A stretch of DNA of 11,332 bases, from contig JAJRQS010000277.1 in assembly GCA_024280135.1 (NCBI GenBank), positions 1 through 11,332 on the forward strand, written 5' to 3'. Source of the stretch: Bacteroidota bacterium (GTDB taxonomy: Bacteria; Bacteroidota; Bacteroidia; Chitinophagales; Saprospiraceae). Each line of letters begins with the position of its first letter. Position 1 is the stretch's first letter. The notes beneath the pieces are model-generated. The model was not told where the DNA came from, searched no databases, and worked only from the letters and a program-made list of their open reading frames with translations. The translations under genes were made by a program, and so were the position numbers. Below are positions 5,014-9,668 of the stretch, in pieces.

Positions 5014-5781
5014 ATGAATGTTCAATCAATTCTTCAAATGAGAAAGGCGCTTAGGAACGGCTTCGAGAGACATTGGTTGGTCTTGCTTTTATTTACTATT
5101 TATATGACGTCTAATTCTCAGGAGCCGCCCCAGGTCTTGCAATCTGGATTTGTGGGGTCTCCGATCTTTGCGGAAGCTGAAAACACTTCTATTTCTTATT
5201 GGGGTAATGTTACGGATGTAGCCTCAGGCTTCAACCTGAAAAATCCTAAAAAGAATAATCGTTTTCCGAATATCGCTTTCTTAATCAACAAAAACCTCAT
5301 TCATAAAAAAGGGGTAACGCCAGGAATGAAAGAAGTGAATAATCGGATATGCCAAAACTATGTACGAAAATTTGCGAAAGTCGCACGTTCCGAAATGCAC
5401 AAATATGGAATTCCTGCAAGCATCACACTGGCGCAAGGATTACTCGAAAGTGATGCAGGGGGTAGTCGTTTGAGCCGAAAAAACAACAATCATTTTGGTA
5501 TGAAATGTTTTTCACGTAAGTGCAGCAAAGGACATTGCTCAAACTTTACCGATGACAGCCACAAAGATTTTTTTAGAATTTATGATAATGTCTGGCAGTC
5601 TTATCGGGCACATAGTAAGCTCTTGCAAAAGAAGCGGTATCGTGCACTCAAGACCTATGGCAAAGACTATCGAAAATGGGCGCATGGCTTGCGCAAAGCA
5701 GGATATGCAACCGACAAAAGATATGCTTTTAAATTAATCGACATTATCGAGGCACTCCACTTATACGAATTTGATAGATAG
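5014..5781 (+). CDS. Peptidoglycan N-acetylglucosaminidase, GH73 family
   Basis: A 255-residue exported murein hydrolase predicted to cleave the glycan backbone at N-acetylglucosamine. A basic N-terminus precedes a hydrophobic segment (about 20-31, WLVLLLFTIYMT), reading as a signal peptide or anchor. Residues about 33-105 have no recognised domain. The glucosaminidase domain spans about 112-254: GIPASITLAQGLLESDAGGS contains the expected catalytic Glu (E145), followed by NNHFGMKC (158-165), FRIYDNVWQSYRAHS (187-201) and YATDKRYAFKLIDIIE (231-246), all family hallmarks. Three Cys (165, 170, 175) sit after the FGMK motif. ATG 5014 is used; ATG 5038 (M9) would also keep the hydrophobic segment. 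No LysM or SH3 wall-binding domain is present. It has its own promoter and terminator and is convergent with the Zorya-like operon, so it is likely an independent cell-wall remodelling gene. Confidence 0.85.
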   Translation: MNVQSILQMRKALRNGFERHWLVLLLFTIYMTSNSQEPPQVLQSGFVGSPIFAEAENTSISYWGNVTDVASGFNLKNPKKNNRFPNIAFLINKNLIHKKGVTPGMKEVNNRICQNYVRKFAKVARSEMHKYGIPASITLAQGLLESDAGGSRLSRKNNNHFGMKCFSRKCSKGHCSNFTDDSHKDFFRIYDNVWQSYRAHSKLLQKKRYRALKTYGKDYRKWAHGLRKAGYATDKRYAFKLIDIIEALHLYEFDR

Positions 5782-5861
5782 GATTTTTTCGGTAACGGCT
5801 TGCTCAAAATGAAAATTTGTTTTTCCTTGCGCAAATAAGACTAAAGTTCCTACGCTTTTCT

Positions 5862-5873
5862 GCCCGTAAGGGC
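5862..5873. repeat. GTAA-capped GC hairpin
   Basis: GCCC-GTAA-GGGC is a perfect 4-bp GC stem with a GNRA-type loop, just before the terminator stem of the glucosaminidase gene. It resembles the shorter hairpin at 1092-1101. Confidence 0.4.
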
Positions 5874-5874
5874 C

Positions 5875-5911
5875 ACTACCCACAATTGATTTTGCTGGGT
5901 AGTTTTTTTTT
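5875..5911 (+). terminator. Intrinsic terminator of the glucosaminidase gene
   Basis: ACTACCCA (5875-5882) pairs with TGGGTAGT (5896-5903) around a 13-base loop, and a run of nine T (5903-5911) follows. It lies about 95 bases after the glucosaminidase stop. On the minus strand no T-run follows the stem, so it is not an obvious terminator for the HNH gene, whose stop codon lies at 5918-5920. Confidence 0.8.
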
Positions 5912-5917
5912 AGAATT

Positions 5918-6682
5918 TTAGGTAGGAGGTTTTTCATTTAAAGGAAATTTATCTCTGAATTCGTCCAATTGACGCCTCAACGATCGCTTTTTAAAATTAG
6001 CTTTATGATGTTCATCTACCTCTGAATGACATCGAATGCAGAGACATTGTAAGTTACTTGTTTGATTATTTATTTTATTTCTATCTATATGATGTGTATG
6101 GCAGTATTTTCTATGATCGTTTAAATCGATTTCGCATTTTTCACATGTGTATTTTTTCGATTCTCTGTACATCCTGCTTACAGTACTCCAATCTAAAGTG
6201 TAGCCATCCAAATCTAATTTTATTACAGCATTATTATCGGTAAATCGTTTTTGTTGCTCTTCAAAAAACTCCTCCGTAGTTTGATTCCCATTAGCAACAT
6301 TTTGCCTACAATAACCGCACAATTCTAATACTAGCATCCTTTCTTCTTTTGTCCTATTATGGATTACAGGCACTTCTGCTTTGTAAGCTGGAACATATCC
6401 ACGGTATTCATTCATTGCTCGACATTTAACGATGTGAAATTTTGGGTTGCCGTTTGTAAAACTAAATTTTTTCTTATAAAAAAAAATTGGGTATTTTTTT
6501 TCATCTATGCCATTTATATAGCATTCATTGTTATTAATAGTAATTTTACCAGCATCAATTAATGATGCTAGATCTTTTCCAACTATCTGAATTCGAGGAT
6601 CCTCGGTTGTCGGGTTAGGTTTGATTCCTTTGTCCCGAAACCATTGTGCCGTATGACCTTTTGTGAAATCGTATAGAGCCAT
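5918..6682 (-). CDS. zorE: HNH endonuclease, ZorE-like effector
   Basis: A 254-residue soluble protein and the third gene of the operon. The C-terminal HNH domain (about 178-228) has C180-x2-C183, H195-T-H197-H198, N210, then C215-x2-C218-H219. This is a zinc-stabilised HNH fold with the His/Asn/His set intact, so a metal-dependent DNA cutting or nicking activity is expected. The N-terminal half (about 1-175) has no catalytic motif I recognise. It contains FHIVKC (82-87) and LCGYC (121-125), whose three Cys could form a second metal site, and may serve in DNA or partner recognition. The C-terminus is basic (KANFKKRSLRRQ). No signal peptide or membrane helix is present. In type II Zorya the HNH protein is the DNA-targeting effector. 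A stand-alone or restriction-associated HNH gene is the alternative, but the gapless coupling to zorB argues against it. Confidence 0.78.
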   Translation of the reverse strand: MALYDFTKGHTAQWFRDKGIKPNPTTEDPRIQIVGKDLASLIDAGKITINNNECYINGIDEKKYPIFFYKKKFSFTNGNPKFHIVKCRAMNEYRGYVPAYKAEVPVIHNRTKEERMLVLELCGYCRQNVANGNQTTEEFFEEQQKRFTDNNAVIKLDLDGYTLDWSTVSRMYRESKKYTCEKCEIDLNDHRKYCHTHHIDRNKINNQTSNLQCLCIRCHSEVDEHHKANFKKRSLRRQLDEFRDKFPLNEKPPT

Positions 6683-7417
6683 TTAATTTATTTTAGTTAG
6701 AATTTCTTCGACAATTTGTTCACTGGTTGTTATGATTCTGAACTCGACACGCCTTGAACAGTCAGGGCATATTTTATTCTTTGAATTTATAGTGTATTGC
6801 TTTTTTTTATCCAATGTTCTTCCAAACCCATACCCATTTGCAACAAACCAAAACTCTAATCTATCTCTTGTTTTGGAACCATAAGATTTAAACTCTTTTG
6901 TTGAAATCGTGTATTTTAAAACTTTTTTAGCTCTTCTCTGGGACCACTCAATTCCCTTCATGTACACCGCCTTTTTTCTTTTGTGTTTTACTATCGGCTT
7001 ATTCGCGTGTCCTTCTATCCGAATTTCGGCTATCTTTTCTTTATATTTTTCTTTTGAAATAATACTTAAATACTTTGGAATAAATTCTTTTAGAATAAGT
7101 AAAAATTTTGTTCTGATTCGGTCACTGTCTGGCCGAAATTGAATATTCTTGCCCGTAAAAGAAATCGAAAGAGTTGCTCTATTAAACTCGATATTTTTTT
7201 TCCACTTTTTTAAATCTTTCTTAACTAAAATTTCTAATTCATCTGCCATTTCTTTTTTTATGTCCTCATACCCAGATACTATTTTTTCTATTTCAGTCTT
7301 TTGCTTGTTTATTTCAACCATATAGGAAATTGCAATAAACATAAATATGACCATGAGGGCAGTCATGATGTCTGTCAATGACATCCAAAAAGAATTATTA
7401 TTTGATTTTAATTTCAT
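6683..7417 (-). CDS. zorB: MotB/OmpA-like motor protein, ZorB-like
   Basis: A 244-residue protein anchored by one N-terminal helix (about 10-33, starting FWMSLTDIMTALM). D16 lies where MotB and ZorB carry the essential proton-binding Asp. Residues about 36-70 are charged and helical, like a plug or linker. The rest is an OmpA-type peptidoglycan-binding domain: SISFTGKNIQF (84-94), EIRIEGHANKP (131-141), WSQRRAKKVL (158-167), ANGYGFGR (193-200) and SRRVEFRI (221-228). The usual GHTD reads GHAN here, so the commonly acidic residue is Asn139. A CPDC motif (217-220) directly precedes the SRRVEF strand. ZorB should pair as a dimer inside a ZorA ring and fix the motor to the cell wall. The four-base overlap with zorA suggests coupled translation. 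A flagellar MotB is unlikely, as no flagellar genes are nearby. Confidence 0.8.
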   Translation of the reverse strand: MKLKSNNNSFWMSLTDIMTALMVIFMFIAISYMVEINKQKTEIEKIVSGYEDIKKEMADELEILVKKDLKKWKKNIEFNRATLSISFTGKNIQFRPDSDRIRTKFLLILKEFIPKYLSIISKEKYKEKIAEIRIEGHANKPIVKHKRKKAVYMKGIEWSQRRAKKVLKYTISTKEFKSYGSKTRDRLEFWFVANGYGFGRTLDKKKQYTINSKNKICPDCSRRVEFRIITTSEQIVEEILTKIN

Positions 7418-8571
7418 TTTTCAATTTCAAGCCGTAGGTCCTTGGATGGCATAGCGCGAACGAGATATTGTTTTATAAGTGAATCCATAGATTCAAGGGT
7501 CATTGTTAGCTTCTTTTTGAAATGCTCATCAATATCATTTAGGCTAAACTTTGCAAGTTCCTGTAGATGGTTAGTTACTACAGTAAGATTTTCATTAGTC
7601 CTGTGTACATTTGTCGCTAGGTTCCTGACATTGACACCTACATCTTCTAAAGTGCCCATAGAGTCTACAGTCTGTTTCAATATCGTTTGAAATTGATTAT
7701 CTCCTAAGGTAATGTTTTCTAACTCTTTAAGAATCAACTGAAGACGACCTTCTTCATTTGCAAGGTTCGTAATGTGGCTAAGGATTTCTTTAAATTTGTC
7801 AGCTAACAAATTGGAGGTTTCTCTTAGATGGTTAGAGACATTCCTATTTGCTTCGTTGAGGGTTTCTAAATTATTCTTATTCTCTTTTTGCCACTGATTC
7901 ATATTTTGAACAGTTTTATTTAATTCATCAAAATTTTCGGCAATCAATCGATTTAATATTTCTTTAATCTTATTGTTAAATATTTCAACAGATCGTTCCA
8001 TTGCATTCAATAATTCCTTCGAATTCATATCGGCAATACGCTTTGCTAATTCATTGTTATTTTCGTTCAGCGTTTGAACAATATTATTGCCAATAAGTCT
8101 ATTTTGTTCATTTATATTCGCTAGGTTCTTATTTTGATTTTCGTAGTGATTGTTCAACGATTGGATAATATTATCTCCAATAATTGTATTTTGTCCACTT
8201 GAGGATTCAAGTAGTTGTACAATCTTTCGTAGTTCTATTGTATTAGCATCAGTCTCTTCATTCTCAATGTGAAACCAAAATTCAATTATTTTACCAACTA
8301 CCATTGAAAGTACTATTCCAATAATTGATGTGTAAAAAGATTGCTTTAGACCTTCGAGAAGAGTTGGAATACTTCCAGCGATATCCTCTACATTAAATCC
8401 AGTTAGACCTAAGGCGATCCCGATGAAAGTCCCAAGAACACCAGAACTTGCGAAACCAGAGGGGATAGAAGCAATTACTCGGGGTTTCTTTTTTGAGGTA
8501 CTAAGCCAATAGAAAGAAAGTAAAAACCATAAAATGAGGGGCAGGTAAGCCCAAATATTTACATTAGACAT
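7414..8571 (-). CDS. zorA: MotA/ExbB-like motor protein with coiled-coil tail, ZorA-like
   Basis: A 385-residue first gene of the operon. Three membrane helices are visible, at about 7-24, 41-58 and 78-100. The core GVLGTFIGIALGLTGF plus SIPTLLEGLKQSFYTS and IIGIVLS is the MotA/TolQ/ExbB proton-channel signature in its ZorA form. From about residue 103 the protein is a long, Asn/Glu/Lys-rich helical tail with few Pro or Gly, expected to project into the cytoplasm as a bundle or coiled coil. The tail opens with two copies of a 29-residue unit (IGDNIIQSLN at 131-140 and IGNNIVQTLN at 160-169). In Zorya, five ZorA subunits surround a ZorB dimer and the tail carries the signal to the effector. 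The tail is clearly shorter than that of E. coli type I ZorA. TolQ/ExbB or GldL are less likely because of the tail and the neighbours. ATG 8571 is the only start that gives a complete helix 1. Confidence 0.82.
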   Translation of the reverse strand: MSNVNIWAYLPLILWFLLSFYWLSTSKKKPRVIASIPSGFASSGVLGTFIGIALGLTGFNVEDIAGSIPTLLEGLKQSFYTSIIGIVLSMVVGKIIEFWFHIENEETDANTIELRKIVQLLESSSGQNTIIGDNIIQSLNNHYENQNKNLANINEQNRLIGNNIVQTLNENNNELAKRIADMNSKELLNAMERSVEIFNNKIKEILNRLIAENFDELNKTVQNMNQWQKENKNNLETLNEANRNVSNHLRETSNLLADKFKEILSHITNLANEEGRLQLILKELENITLGDNQFQTILKQTVDSMGTLEDVGVNVRNLATNVHRTNENLTVVTNHLQELAKFSLNDIDEHFKKKLTMTLESMDSLIKQYLVRAMPSKDLRLEIEK

Positions 8572-8617: not shown

Positions 8618-8625
8618 CAAATATA
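8618..8625 (-). promoter_or_regulatory. -7 promoter box (TATATTTG) for the Zorya-like operon
   Basis: The minus strand reads TATATTTG, an exact TAnnTTTG match, 46 bases before the zorA ATG. It shares a 14-base string with the promoter at 4660-4673. The region upstream is T-rich without a clear -33 TTG. The operon therefore probably has its own promoter rather than depending on readthrough from hldD, which ends about 130 bases upstream of zorA. Confidence 0.55.
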
Positions 8626-8702: not shown

Positions 8703-9668
8703 TCAAAAAACAATCTCCTCCAGCAAATACCGTTGGACATAATCCGCTACGCCATCTTCTAAGGTCGTAAAAGGCTTGTCATAACCAGCCTCCCGAATTT
8801 TTTTCATCTTTGCTTCCGTAAAATATTGGTAGGTATCCCGAATATCCTTGGGTGTGTCAATAAAAGAAATTTTGGGCTTTAAATCCATAGCCAGAAAAGT
8901 AGCTTTCACTAAATCATTAAAGGTCCTTGCCTGTCCTGTGCCGATATTGTACAGCCCACTCTTTGGCTTTGCATGAAACAAGAAATCAATCATCTGGGCA
9001 ACATCTCGTACATAGACAAAGTCACGGGCCTGTTCTCCATTCTTAAACTTAGAATTGTGTGATCGAAATAGCTTCATGCCGCCGGTCGCTTTGATTTGTT
9101 TGACCGTATGAAAAACAACAGATGCCATTCTACTTTTGTGGTATTCATTGGGGCCATACACATTAAAGAATTTCAAGCCAGCCCAAAACGGTGGGGTTTC
9201 TTTTTGCGTAAGCACCCACTTGTCAAAATCTTGCTTGGAGTCTCCGTAGGGGTTCAAAGGTTTTAGAAATGAAACAATACGATGACTGTCTTTATAGCCA
9301 AACTCTCCAAGACCATACGTGGCCGCACTAGAGGCATAAATCAAAGGCACTTCTGCCAATGTGCAAAATTCCCAAATCTTTTTGGAATAGGACAAATTTA
9401 ATTGCTCAAAAATGCGCCTGTCTTTTTCTGCGGTATCCGTTCGGGCACCCAGATGAATGACCGCTGAAACTTTGGCTCCGTTATGCTTTAACCAATGAAA
9501 AAGCTCCATCCGTTCAATCAGGCGGTCGTATTTTTTATTAGAAAGGTTTTTTAATTTATCTTCTCTAGAAAACTCATCTACAATGATGATATCCTTATAA
9601 CCCAATTCATTAAAATAACGCACTAAGTAACTCCCAATAAATCCTGCCGCCCCCGTAATTATAATCAT
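8703..9668 (-). CDS. hldD: ADP-L-glycero-D-manno-heptose 6-epimerase
   Basis: A 321-residue cytoplasmic enzyme that converts ADP-D-glycero-D-manno-heptose to the L-glycero form for the lipopolysaccharide inner core. It is an extended short-chain dehydrogenase with TGAAGFIG (5-12) for NAD(P) binding and a following Asp (D31). Specific to this epimerase are IYASSAATYG (110-119), Y141-x3-K145 in NPYGDSK, FNVYGPNEYHKSRMASVVFH (168-187) with K178 at the place of the E. coli catalytic Lys, ARDFVYVRDVA (214-224) and AGYDKPF near the end. The length is close to the usual 310 or so. It starts 12 bases after the nadC stop, so both are probably on one mRNA. No clear intrinsic terminator follows; a TTGC-AAAA-GCAA hairpin about 35 bases past the stop lacks a T-run. 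Confidence 0.88.
   Translation of the reverse strand: MIIITGAAGFIGSYLVRYFNELGYKDIIIVDEFSREDKLKNLSNKKYDRLIERMELFHWLKHNGAKVSAVIHLGARTDTAEKDRRIFEQLNLSYSKKIWEFCTLAEVPLIYASSAATYGLGEFGYKDSHRIVSFLKPLNPYGDSKQDFDKWVLTQKETPPFWAGLKFFNVYGPNEYHKSRMASVVFHTVKQIKATGGMKLFRSHNSKFKNGEQARDFVYVRDVAQMIDFLFHAKPKSGLYNIGTGQARTFNDLVKATFLAMDLKPKISFIDTPKDIRDTYQYFTEAKMKKIREAGYDKPFTTLEDGVADYVQRYLLEEIVF

Follow-up and report, generated by a model that had tools for sequence, protein, structure and literature searches.

The 11,332-base contig JAJRQS010000277.1 of a Bacteroidota bacterium (Saprospiraceae), which is analyzed here as a whole and referred to as the window, carries a three-gene operon that is, with a probability of roughly 93% in our estimate, a complete type II Zorya defence system (zorA-zorB-zorE), in which a flagellar-type membrane motor would direct DNA nicking by ZorE. 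All three genes lie on the reverse strand and are free of frameshifts and stops, their open reading frames (ORFs) being exact: zorA at 7414..8571 (385 amino acids, aa), zorB at 6683..7417 (244 aa) and zorE, coding for a nuclease, at 5918..6682 (254 aa). An earlier note, based on the sequence alone, had described one gapless operon, which is literally so between zorB and zorE (a gap of 0 nucleotides, nt); zorA and zorB overlap by 4 nt.

The assignment is carried by profile searches, which gave each protein a strong match to a PADLOC type II model: ZorA2 for ZorA (PDLC00635, E-value (E) 7.8e-54), ZorB2 for ZorB (PDLC00641, E 2e-67; residues 3-242 on positions 9-236 of 238) and ZorE2 for ZorE (PDLC00644, E 1.2e-54; residues 3-249 on positions 7-265 of a 267-position model). 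Chance matches are excluded by these E-values. The same three names (ZorA2, ZorB2 and ZorE) were returned by NCBIfam, under the equivalog cut-offs, and the best PDB matches of ZorA (E 8.2e-21) and ZorB (E 6.3e-26) were the corresponding chains of 8vvi, a ZorA5B2 structure from the type II system of Sulfuricurvum kujiense (PMC11890865). For ZorE, no convincing solved relative was found by sequence in PDB (best E 0.54). Together, the PADLOC and NCBIfam names and the closest solved relatives bear out the type II layout that had been read from the gene order.

The anatomy of the proteins is consistent with this assignment: ORFs, hydropathy and residues all agree with the earlier description of a three-helix MotA-type protein, a one-helix MotB-type protein with Asp16 and an HNH protein. 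In ZorA, 19-residue hydropathy peaks mark three hydrophobic regions, at 6-24, within 32-61 and at 82-100, behind which extends a cytoplasmic tail of about 285 aa. ZorB has a single hydrophobic region (residues 12-30), with Asp16 at the motor position, where all 84 aligned ZorB proteins have D, and its C-terminal part is OmpA-like (21.8 bits in Pfam, below the 27.2 cut-off). Escherichia coli type II Zorya served as the reference, its ZorB matching in numbering the residues that PMC11890865 names and its ZorE all eight that PMC13192584 quotes; according to these two papers, the residues are functional or lie at active or zinc sites of a model. D16 of the window ZorB corresponds to E. coli D24, H137 to H141 (conserved in 82/84) and R222 to R215 (82/84), so that two of the four checked peptidoglycan-site residues that had been mutated (H137 and R222) are kept. 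In ZorE, H83, Y161, H198, K203, N206, H219 and H225 correspond to E. coli H90, Y189, H226, K231, N234, H247 and H253.

A comparison with relatives was based on genome contigs scanned with a ZorB alignment; the scan gave 337 relatives, and the 80 best were retained. Together with the window (L005), L009 and L011-L014 they make up 86 loci; L006 and L007 are duplicates of L036 and L038, and L008, at a contig edge, was left out. ZorE-family proteins stand beside zorB in 76 of the 86 loci, 62 of which (window included) have a ZorE matching the HNH pattern and 14 a ZorE that does not match it, leaving 10 loci without ZorE. The linkage of the HNH protein to zorAB, whose absence the earlier note had named as a possible refutation, is thus frequent among these loci, which had been gathered through ZorB. 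The intergenic spacing in the window falls within the range of 54 intact ZorE-HNH systems, the window among them.

ZorE consists of an N-terminal zinc-site domain (H83, C87, C122 and C125) and an HNH domain (C180, C183, H197, H198, N210, C215, C218 and H219). In a 53-row alignment, the N-terminal site, the HNH zinc site (C180, C183, C215 and C218) and H197, H198, N210, L214 and H219 were invariant in every row. The rows were picked by a pattern requiring most of the HNH motif, and therefore the invariance of the HNH columns is partly by choice; H83, C87, C122, C125, C180 and C183 were left free by the pattern. Among 73 ZorE proteins longer than 180 aa chosen without it, the H83 column was H in all 73 and the H198 column in 64. 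The N-terminal domain of E. coli ZorE was named DUF8245 (PMC13192584); the Pfam scan of the window ZorE returned no model of that name, which is transferred here by alignment. In the AlphaFold2 model (mean pLDDT 86.3, pTM 0.52), residues ~41-140 (block means 84-95) and ~161-250 (90-98) were well predicted, with a looser link between them and an unsure relative placement. The C-terminal extension of the 367-aa E. coli ZorE is lacking in the window; 53 of the 62 HNH-pattern ZorE proteins are 254-293 aa long. The N-terminal half, which the earlier note considered unusual, proved standard, with its H/C/C/C site, the coverage of residues 3-249 by PDLC00644 and the H83 column; being ordinary for ZorE, it is a weak ground for divergence.

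The tail of ZorA is short and contains one conserved block. The window ZorA is the shortest among 54 intact ZorA proteins linked to an HNH-pattern ZorE, itself included (range 385-718 aa, median 489.5; lengths were counted from the first possible start, and eight other HNH loci were dropped as split, cut or lacking a start motif). Similar lengths were found in the solved type II ZorA (378 aa), L088 (389 aa) and L157 (388 aa). The short tail, previously taken as an oddity, thus has a solved precedent, and for this reason it is also a weak ground for divergence. In the tail alignment, variable stretches flank a single block of about 57 aa, residues 179-235 of the window ZorA (7867..8037, reverse strand; FN...NF..LN..V...WQ), which is called the tail module here. 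The evidence for it is alignment A6 (22 rows), in which an F, N-F and W-Q are invariant, its profile score and the match to 8vvi. The window ZorA scores 75.1 bits with a module profile of which it is itself a row.

Several observations weigh against the identification as a complete type II system. The NCBIfam scores fell short of the cut-offs (83.2 bits against 700 for ZorA2, 110.1 against 400 for ZorB2 and 61.6 against 600 for ZorE); in our view, cut-offs so high would let in nothing but near kin of the reference proteins and should not be read as a biological criterion. Certain residues differ from E. coli: ZorB has N139 at the S143 site (a column with D 56, S 19 and N 6 times in 84) and E237 at the R230 site, yet E is the commonest residue there (50/84), and ZorE has Q207 at the H235 site, a variable column. 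In addition, the genome is only 79.7% complete, which restricts the view of the wider setting, and no further defence genes were recognised on the 11.3-kb contig when nine larger ORFs were compared with Pfam and the three zor proteins alone with PADLOC and NCBIfam.

Among the alternatives, the one that survives best, improbable as it is, would be a decayed Zorya, with all genes present but inactive, for instance owing to a ZorA tail that is too short. The window ZorA is indeed at the lower end of the length range, and deletions or mutations in the tail abolish defence by E. coli type II Zorya (PMC11890865); however, the three reading frames are undamaged, the module is retained at 75 bits, and other compact systems exist, including the solved ZorA, L088 and L157, the last with a 251-aa ZorE. 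Decayed or misassembled copies were noticed at other loci: in L006 (642-1498; the same as L036), zorE is split into two ORFs and zorA occurs in two overlapping ORFs, and in L028 (6416-8001) zorA is split in two.

Less credible still is a non-defence motor of the MotAB/ExbBD type, serving gliding or secretion as GldLM or TolQR, beside an unrelated HNH neighbour. Pfam gave only sub-threshold matches for the three zor proteins, and the weak ones to MotA_ExbB (E 0.097), ExbD (0.01) and OmpA (2.4e-4) might point in this direction; but NCBIfam and PADLOC name ZorA and ZorB first, the nearest PDB chains are Zorya, and the ZorE family accompanies zorB at most of the loci. GldL/GldM, TolQ/TolR and flagellar stators, which the earlier note had listed as identities that could overturn its proposal, were rejected, having no match above the cut-off in Pfam or NCBIfam, and this alternative is refuted as far as sequence allows. 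A Zorya in which ZorE works largely independently of the motor, a mode reported for the E. coli protein via Druantia III, is equally implausible here, even with ZorAB-independent recruitment of ZorE having been proposed (PMC13192584). Judged by its sequence, the operon is a known type of system on a long branch, a Zorya type II that is small but otherwise ordinary.

For type II Zorya, PMC11890865 describes a ZorA5B2 motor in which the ZorB Asp, peptidoglycan binding and the ZorA tail are all needed, and a nickase, ZorE, that is recruited by ZorAB. From such work on other Zorya systems we infer the 5:2 assembly, ion flow and nicking for the window. Five ZorA and two ZorB would form an ion-driven motor in the inner membrane, anchored to peptidoglycan by ZorB; infection would activate the motor, and ion flow would turn or rearrange the ZorA ring together with its cytoplasmic tail; the tail may then recruit or license ZorE, which would nick DNA close to the site of infection. 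In our own reading, the tail module would be the place where motor and ZorE are coupled, kept although the tail is among the shortest.

The window operon was compared with known systems. The S. kujiense system (8vvi) is the best solved relative of its ZorA and ZorB and has a similarly short ZorA, with the module at 176-227, but it is distant in sequence, has a 4-residue gap in its module, and only its ZorAB has been solved. E. coli type II (L011) shares the order A-B-E, the module (50.9 bits), ZorB D24, H141 and R215 and the seven ZorE residues, whereas its ZorA is 550 aa as annotated (569 aa in the first-start frame used for module scoring) compared to 385, its ZorE is 367 aa with a C-terminal extension compared to 254, and ZorB S143 and R230 and ZorE H235 differ. 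The compact Bacteroidota system L157 (genome G146) resembles the window in ZorA and ZorE length, gapless A-B-E order and module; it comes from another family and from a profile search, and is not in the trees. Type I Zorya (PDB 8vvn and 8qyd) shares the motor core but has ZorC and ZorD instead of ZorE, longer ZorA chains (696 and 729 aa) and no module at E up to 10.

The distribution of the module among relatives follows that of ZorE. A profile was built on 20 ZorE-linked ZorA proteins. After three of the 76 ZorE loci had been set aside as not evaluable (L075, L079 and L085, cut or without ZorA), the module scored at least 20.8 bits in all 73 remaining loci, comprising the 20 profile rows and 53 others; the lowest score belonged to L028, whose split gene gave a partial module match. 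Among nine evaluable loci without ZorE, eight (L009, L014, L032, L063, L064, L073, L076 and L080) gave at most 4.0 bits or nothing, and the ninth, L093, has a module of 53 bits, yet no ZorE was found adjoining; the tenth, L087, was not evaluable, its ZorA being only 80 aa. Searched against PDB, the A6 profile matched the 8vvi ZorA, which is not among its rows, at E 2.7e-15; type I ZorA chains gave no match with E up to 10. In a separate sample of 395 Bacteroidota genomes, 16, the window's own included, matched ZorB2 with an E of 1e-15 or lower, and 14 of these loci were read (neither the window's own nor G031, the same as L036; L150 and L153 repeat L033 and L028). Here the module was present in 8/8 ZorE loci (only partly in L153) and lacking in four loci without ZorE (L152, L158, L159 and L160); L156 has the module without ZorE and a broken zorB, and L161, whose contig ends before the next gene, has no module but is not evaluable. 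On the ZorB tree (81 rows), there were five independent contrasts between module and ZorE, four of which agree, none oppose and one shows no difference (p 0.125), a number too small for the test to reach significance.

Based on these sequence patterns, we propose that the tail module couples the motor to ZorE. Since the profile rows were ZorE-linked, many loci are related and there were only five contrasts, the coupling is something we infer rather than a result. It is possible, although somewhat doubtful, that the ZorA tail is an exchangeable cassette which chooses the effector of the motor, with residues 179-235 as the ZorE coupling site and the compact window tail showing how little else is needed. 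Motors with a changed effector and without the module include a Bacteroidales Sel1/SprT clade, in which the tail is cut, and a pair of Bacteroidota loci where type I effector genes accompany a type II core. The type I likeness of the L032 tail is weak and L161 is not evaluable, which makes the cassette slightly less probable.

In the two Bacteroidota loci, L032 (1538-8049) and L152 (2655-6326), both ZorB and the ZorA core are of type II, the gene order is B-A, and ZorC comes next; L032 also has ZorD, and in L152 no further ORF of 300 aa follows zorC. Beyond residue 349, the best stretches of the L152 tail match type I models and no others (PDLC00599 among them, over 207-503, with 63 bits for the protein). 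The kind of tail in L032 is unsure, as it matches a type I model at 35 bits but a type II model at 79 bits over nearly its whole length. The Bacteroidales variant was found in five loci (L063, 7153-12318; L064, 7114-12257; L073, 7154-11410; L076, 7321-12393; L080, 7161-11410), each with a ZorA of 221-292 aa, ZorB, a protein of 679-1002 aa and a protein of about 220 aa that is alike in all, and no ZorE; their ZorB proteins group in a single clade (100/100), which falls within the type II systems that have ZorE. Sel1 repeats were detected in the two larger proteins scanned (L063 and L073), and the one smaller protein scanned (L063) is SprT-like, a metalloprotease. These two proteins are candidates for a new effector set of the Zorya motor. 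Beyond the known genomes, the Sel1 protein was sought in 297 genomes of one family and found in one, the known one; no paper linking Zorya with SprT was found in a literature search largely outside subscription journals.

Variation was also observed in ZorE itself. Among the 14 proteins that do not match the HNH pattern, three (L025, L026 and L027) carry a variant of the HNH motif, in L085 the motif lies on a second ORF, two (L021 and L079) are fragments, and eight have no HNH (L046, L050, L072, L078, L083, L089, L091 and L094). The Campylobacteraceae ZorE proteins L046 (2597-3505) and L050 (4800-5750) have a normal N-terminal domain, with a coiled-coil-like stretch in place of HNH, and end in R-N-x-I-x-H-E-G; Pfam gave DUF4145 at E 0.029 for L046 and nothing alike for L050. 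This ending is possibly HEPN-like, a label that does not come from a database match. L072, L078, L083, L089 and L094 accompany gammaproteobacterial zorAB of one clade (100/100) and have a ZorE of 193-243 aa with the N-terminal domain only. In the alphaproteobacterial L091 (6555-11917), the N-terminal domain is fused to weak ankyrin-like repeats, and the next protein appears by eye to be UvrD-type helicase-like.

Relatives of the window system are spread over many phyla. In the ZorB tree, the window and L038, which comes from another genome of the same family, form a pair (95/89) on two long branches, and the program warned of a possible false join; in the ZorE tree, the window is not firmly placed. 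Its branches are 1.17 (ZorB) and 1.49 (ZorE) changes per column. A divergent lineage, as had been suggested, is therefore supported by branch length and not by the tail or the N-terminal half of ZorE. No zorB was detected in the four other genomes of the genus examined, and a match was found in 6 of 60 genomes searched, the window's own included, that is, in 5/59 others (weakest E 5.7e-4). The absence in genus relatives and the lower guanine-cytosine content of the operon (0.31-0.33, compared to 0.35-0.40 in the flanks) are as expected of a mobile defence gene set. Carriage of this lineage by phages was rejected, as no relative was confirmed when viral contigs were scanned with ZorB and ZorE as single-protein queries, which reach close relatives only; so was carriage by plasmids, as all 13 matching plasmid records are below 60% identity. 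The one match in a phage record, L014 (MT837639.1; 'Bacteriophage sp.', UNVERIFIED, unannotated, 6,483 bases), reads zorA-zorB-zorC; PADLOC recognised type I ZorA and ZorC in the ORFs around its ZorB match, and the record is possibly a contig of bacterial origin.

The gene downstream of zorE is convergent and codes for a glucosaminidase (5014-5781, forward strand); on the other side of the operon, an epimerase gene (9668-8703) is followed by genes for a quinolinate phosphoribosyltransferase and an outer-membrane protein. The type I genes zorC and zorD are absent, the neighbours being the glucosaminidase and epimerase genes and the remaining larger ORFs belonging to other Pfam families or to none. 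A possible promoter -7 box, TATATTTG (8618..8625, reverse strand), matches TAnnTTTG, which we take to be the Bacteroidetes -7 consensus, and its last base and the first base of the zorA start codon (ATG) are 47 nt apart; the two strands of the window together contain this pattern 22 times, and the promoter evidence is accordingly weak.

The site was compared between the window genome (G000) and the other genomes of the genus (G001-G004). DNA conserved with G001-G003 spans the glucosaminidase gene and an element of about 70 nt after it (5843..5911, forward strand), which ends in an intrinsic terminator, and stops at 5909-5910, whereas the zorE stop is at 5918; in G001 and G002, a different gene follows. 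Since conservation ends some 8 nt short of the zorE stop codon, the element marks the edge of the variable segment. On the other side, conservation ends inside the end of the epimerase gene, at 8722 in G003 and G004, and extends in G002 to 8797, the end of the G002 contig. No clean empty site was found in G001-G004, where some contigs end close by; the epimerase orthologue of G002 and G003 is on another contig than the glucosaminidase, no close epimerase orthologue was found in G001, and no close glucosaminidase orthologue in G004. The site is a variable junction, not a proven clean insertion. The element is single-copy and nearly identical in G000-G003; a 20-base probe (up to two mismatches) found it once each in four of five genomes of the genus and in none of 35 others (40 searched). 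It has no Rfam match and is possibly a small RNA.

The window operon can be regarded as a compact, divergent Bacteroidota example of a known defence system. Comparison with its relatives suggests a testable answer to how a membrane rotary motor commands a soluble nuclease, namely a tail module that tracks the effector, and the presence of this module in one of the shortest natural tails would make the operon a convenient minimal system for investigating tail-effector coupling.

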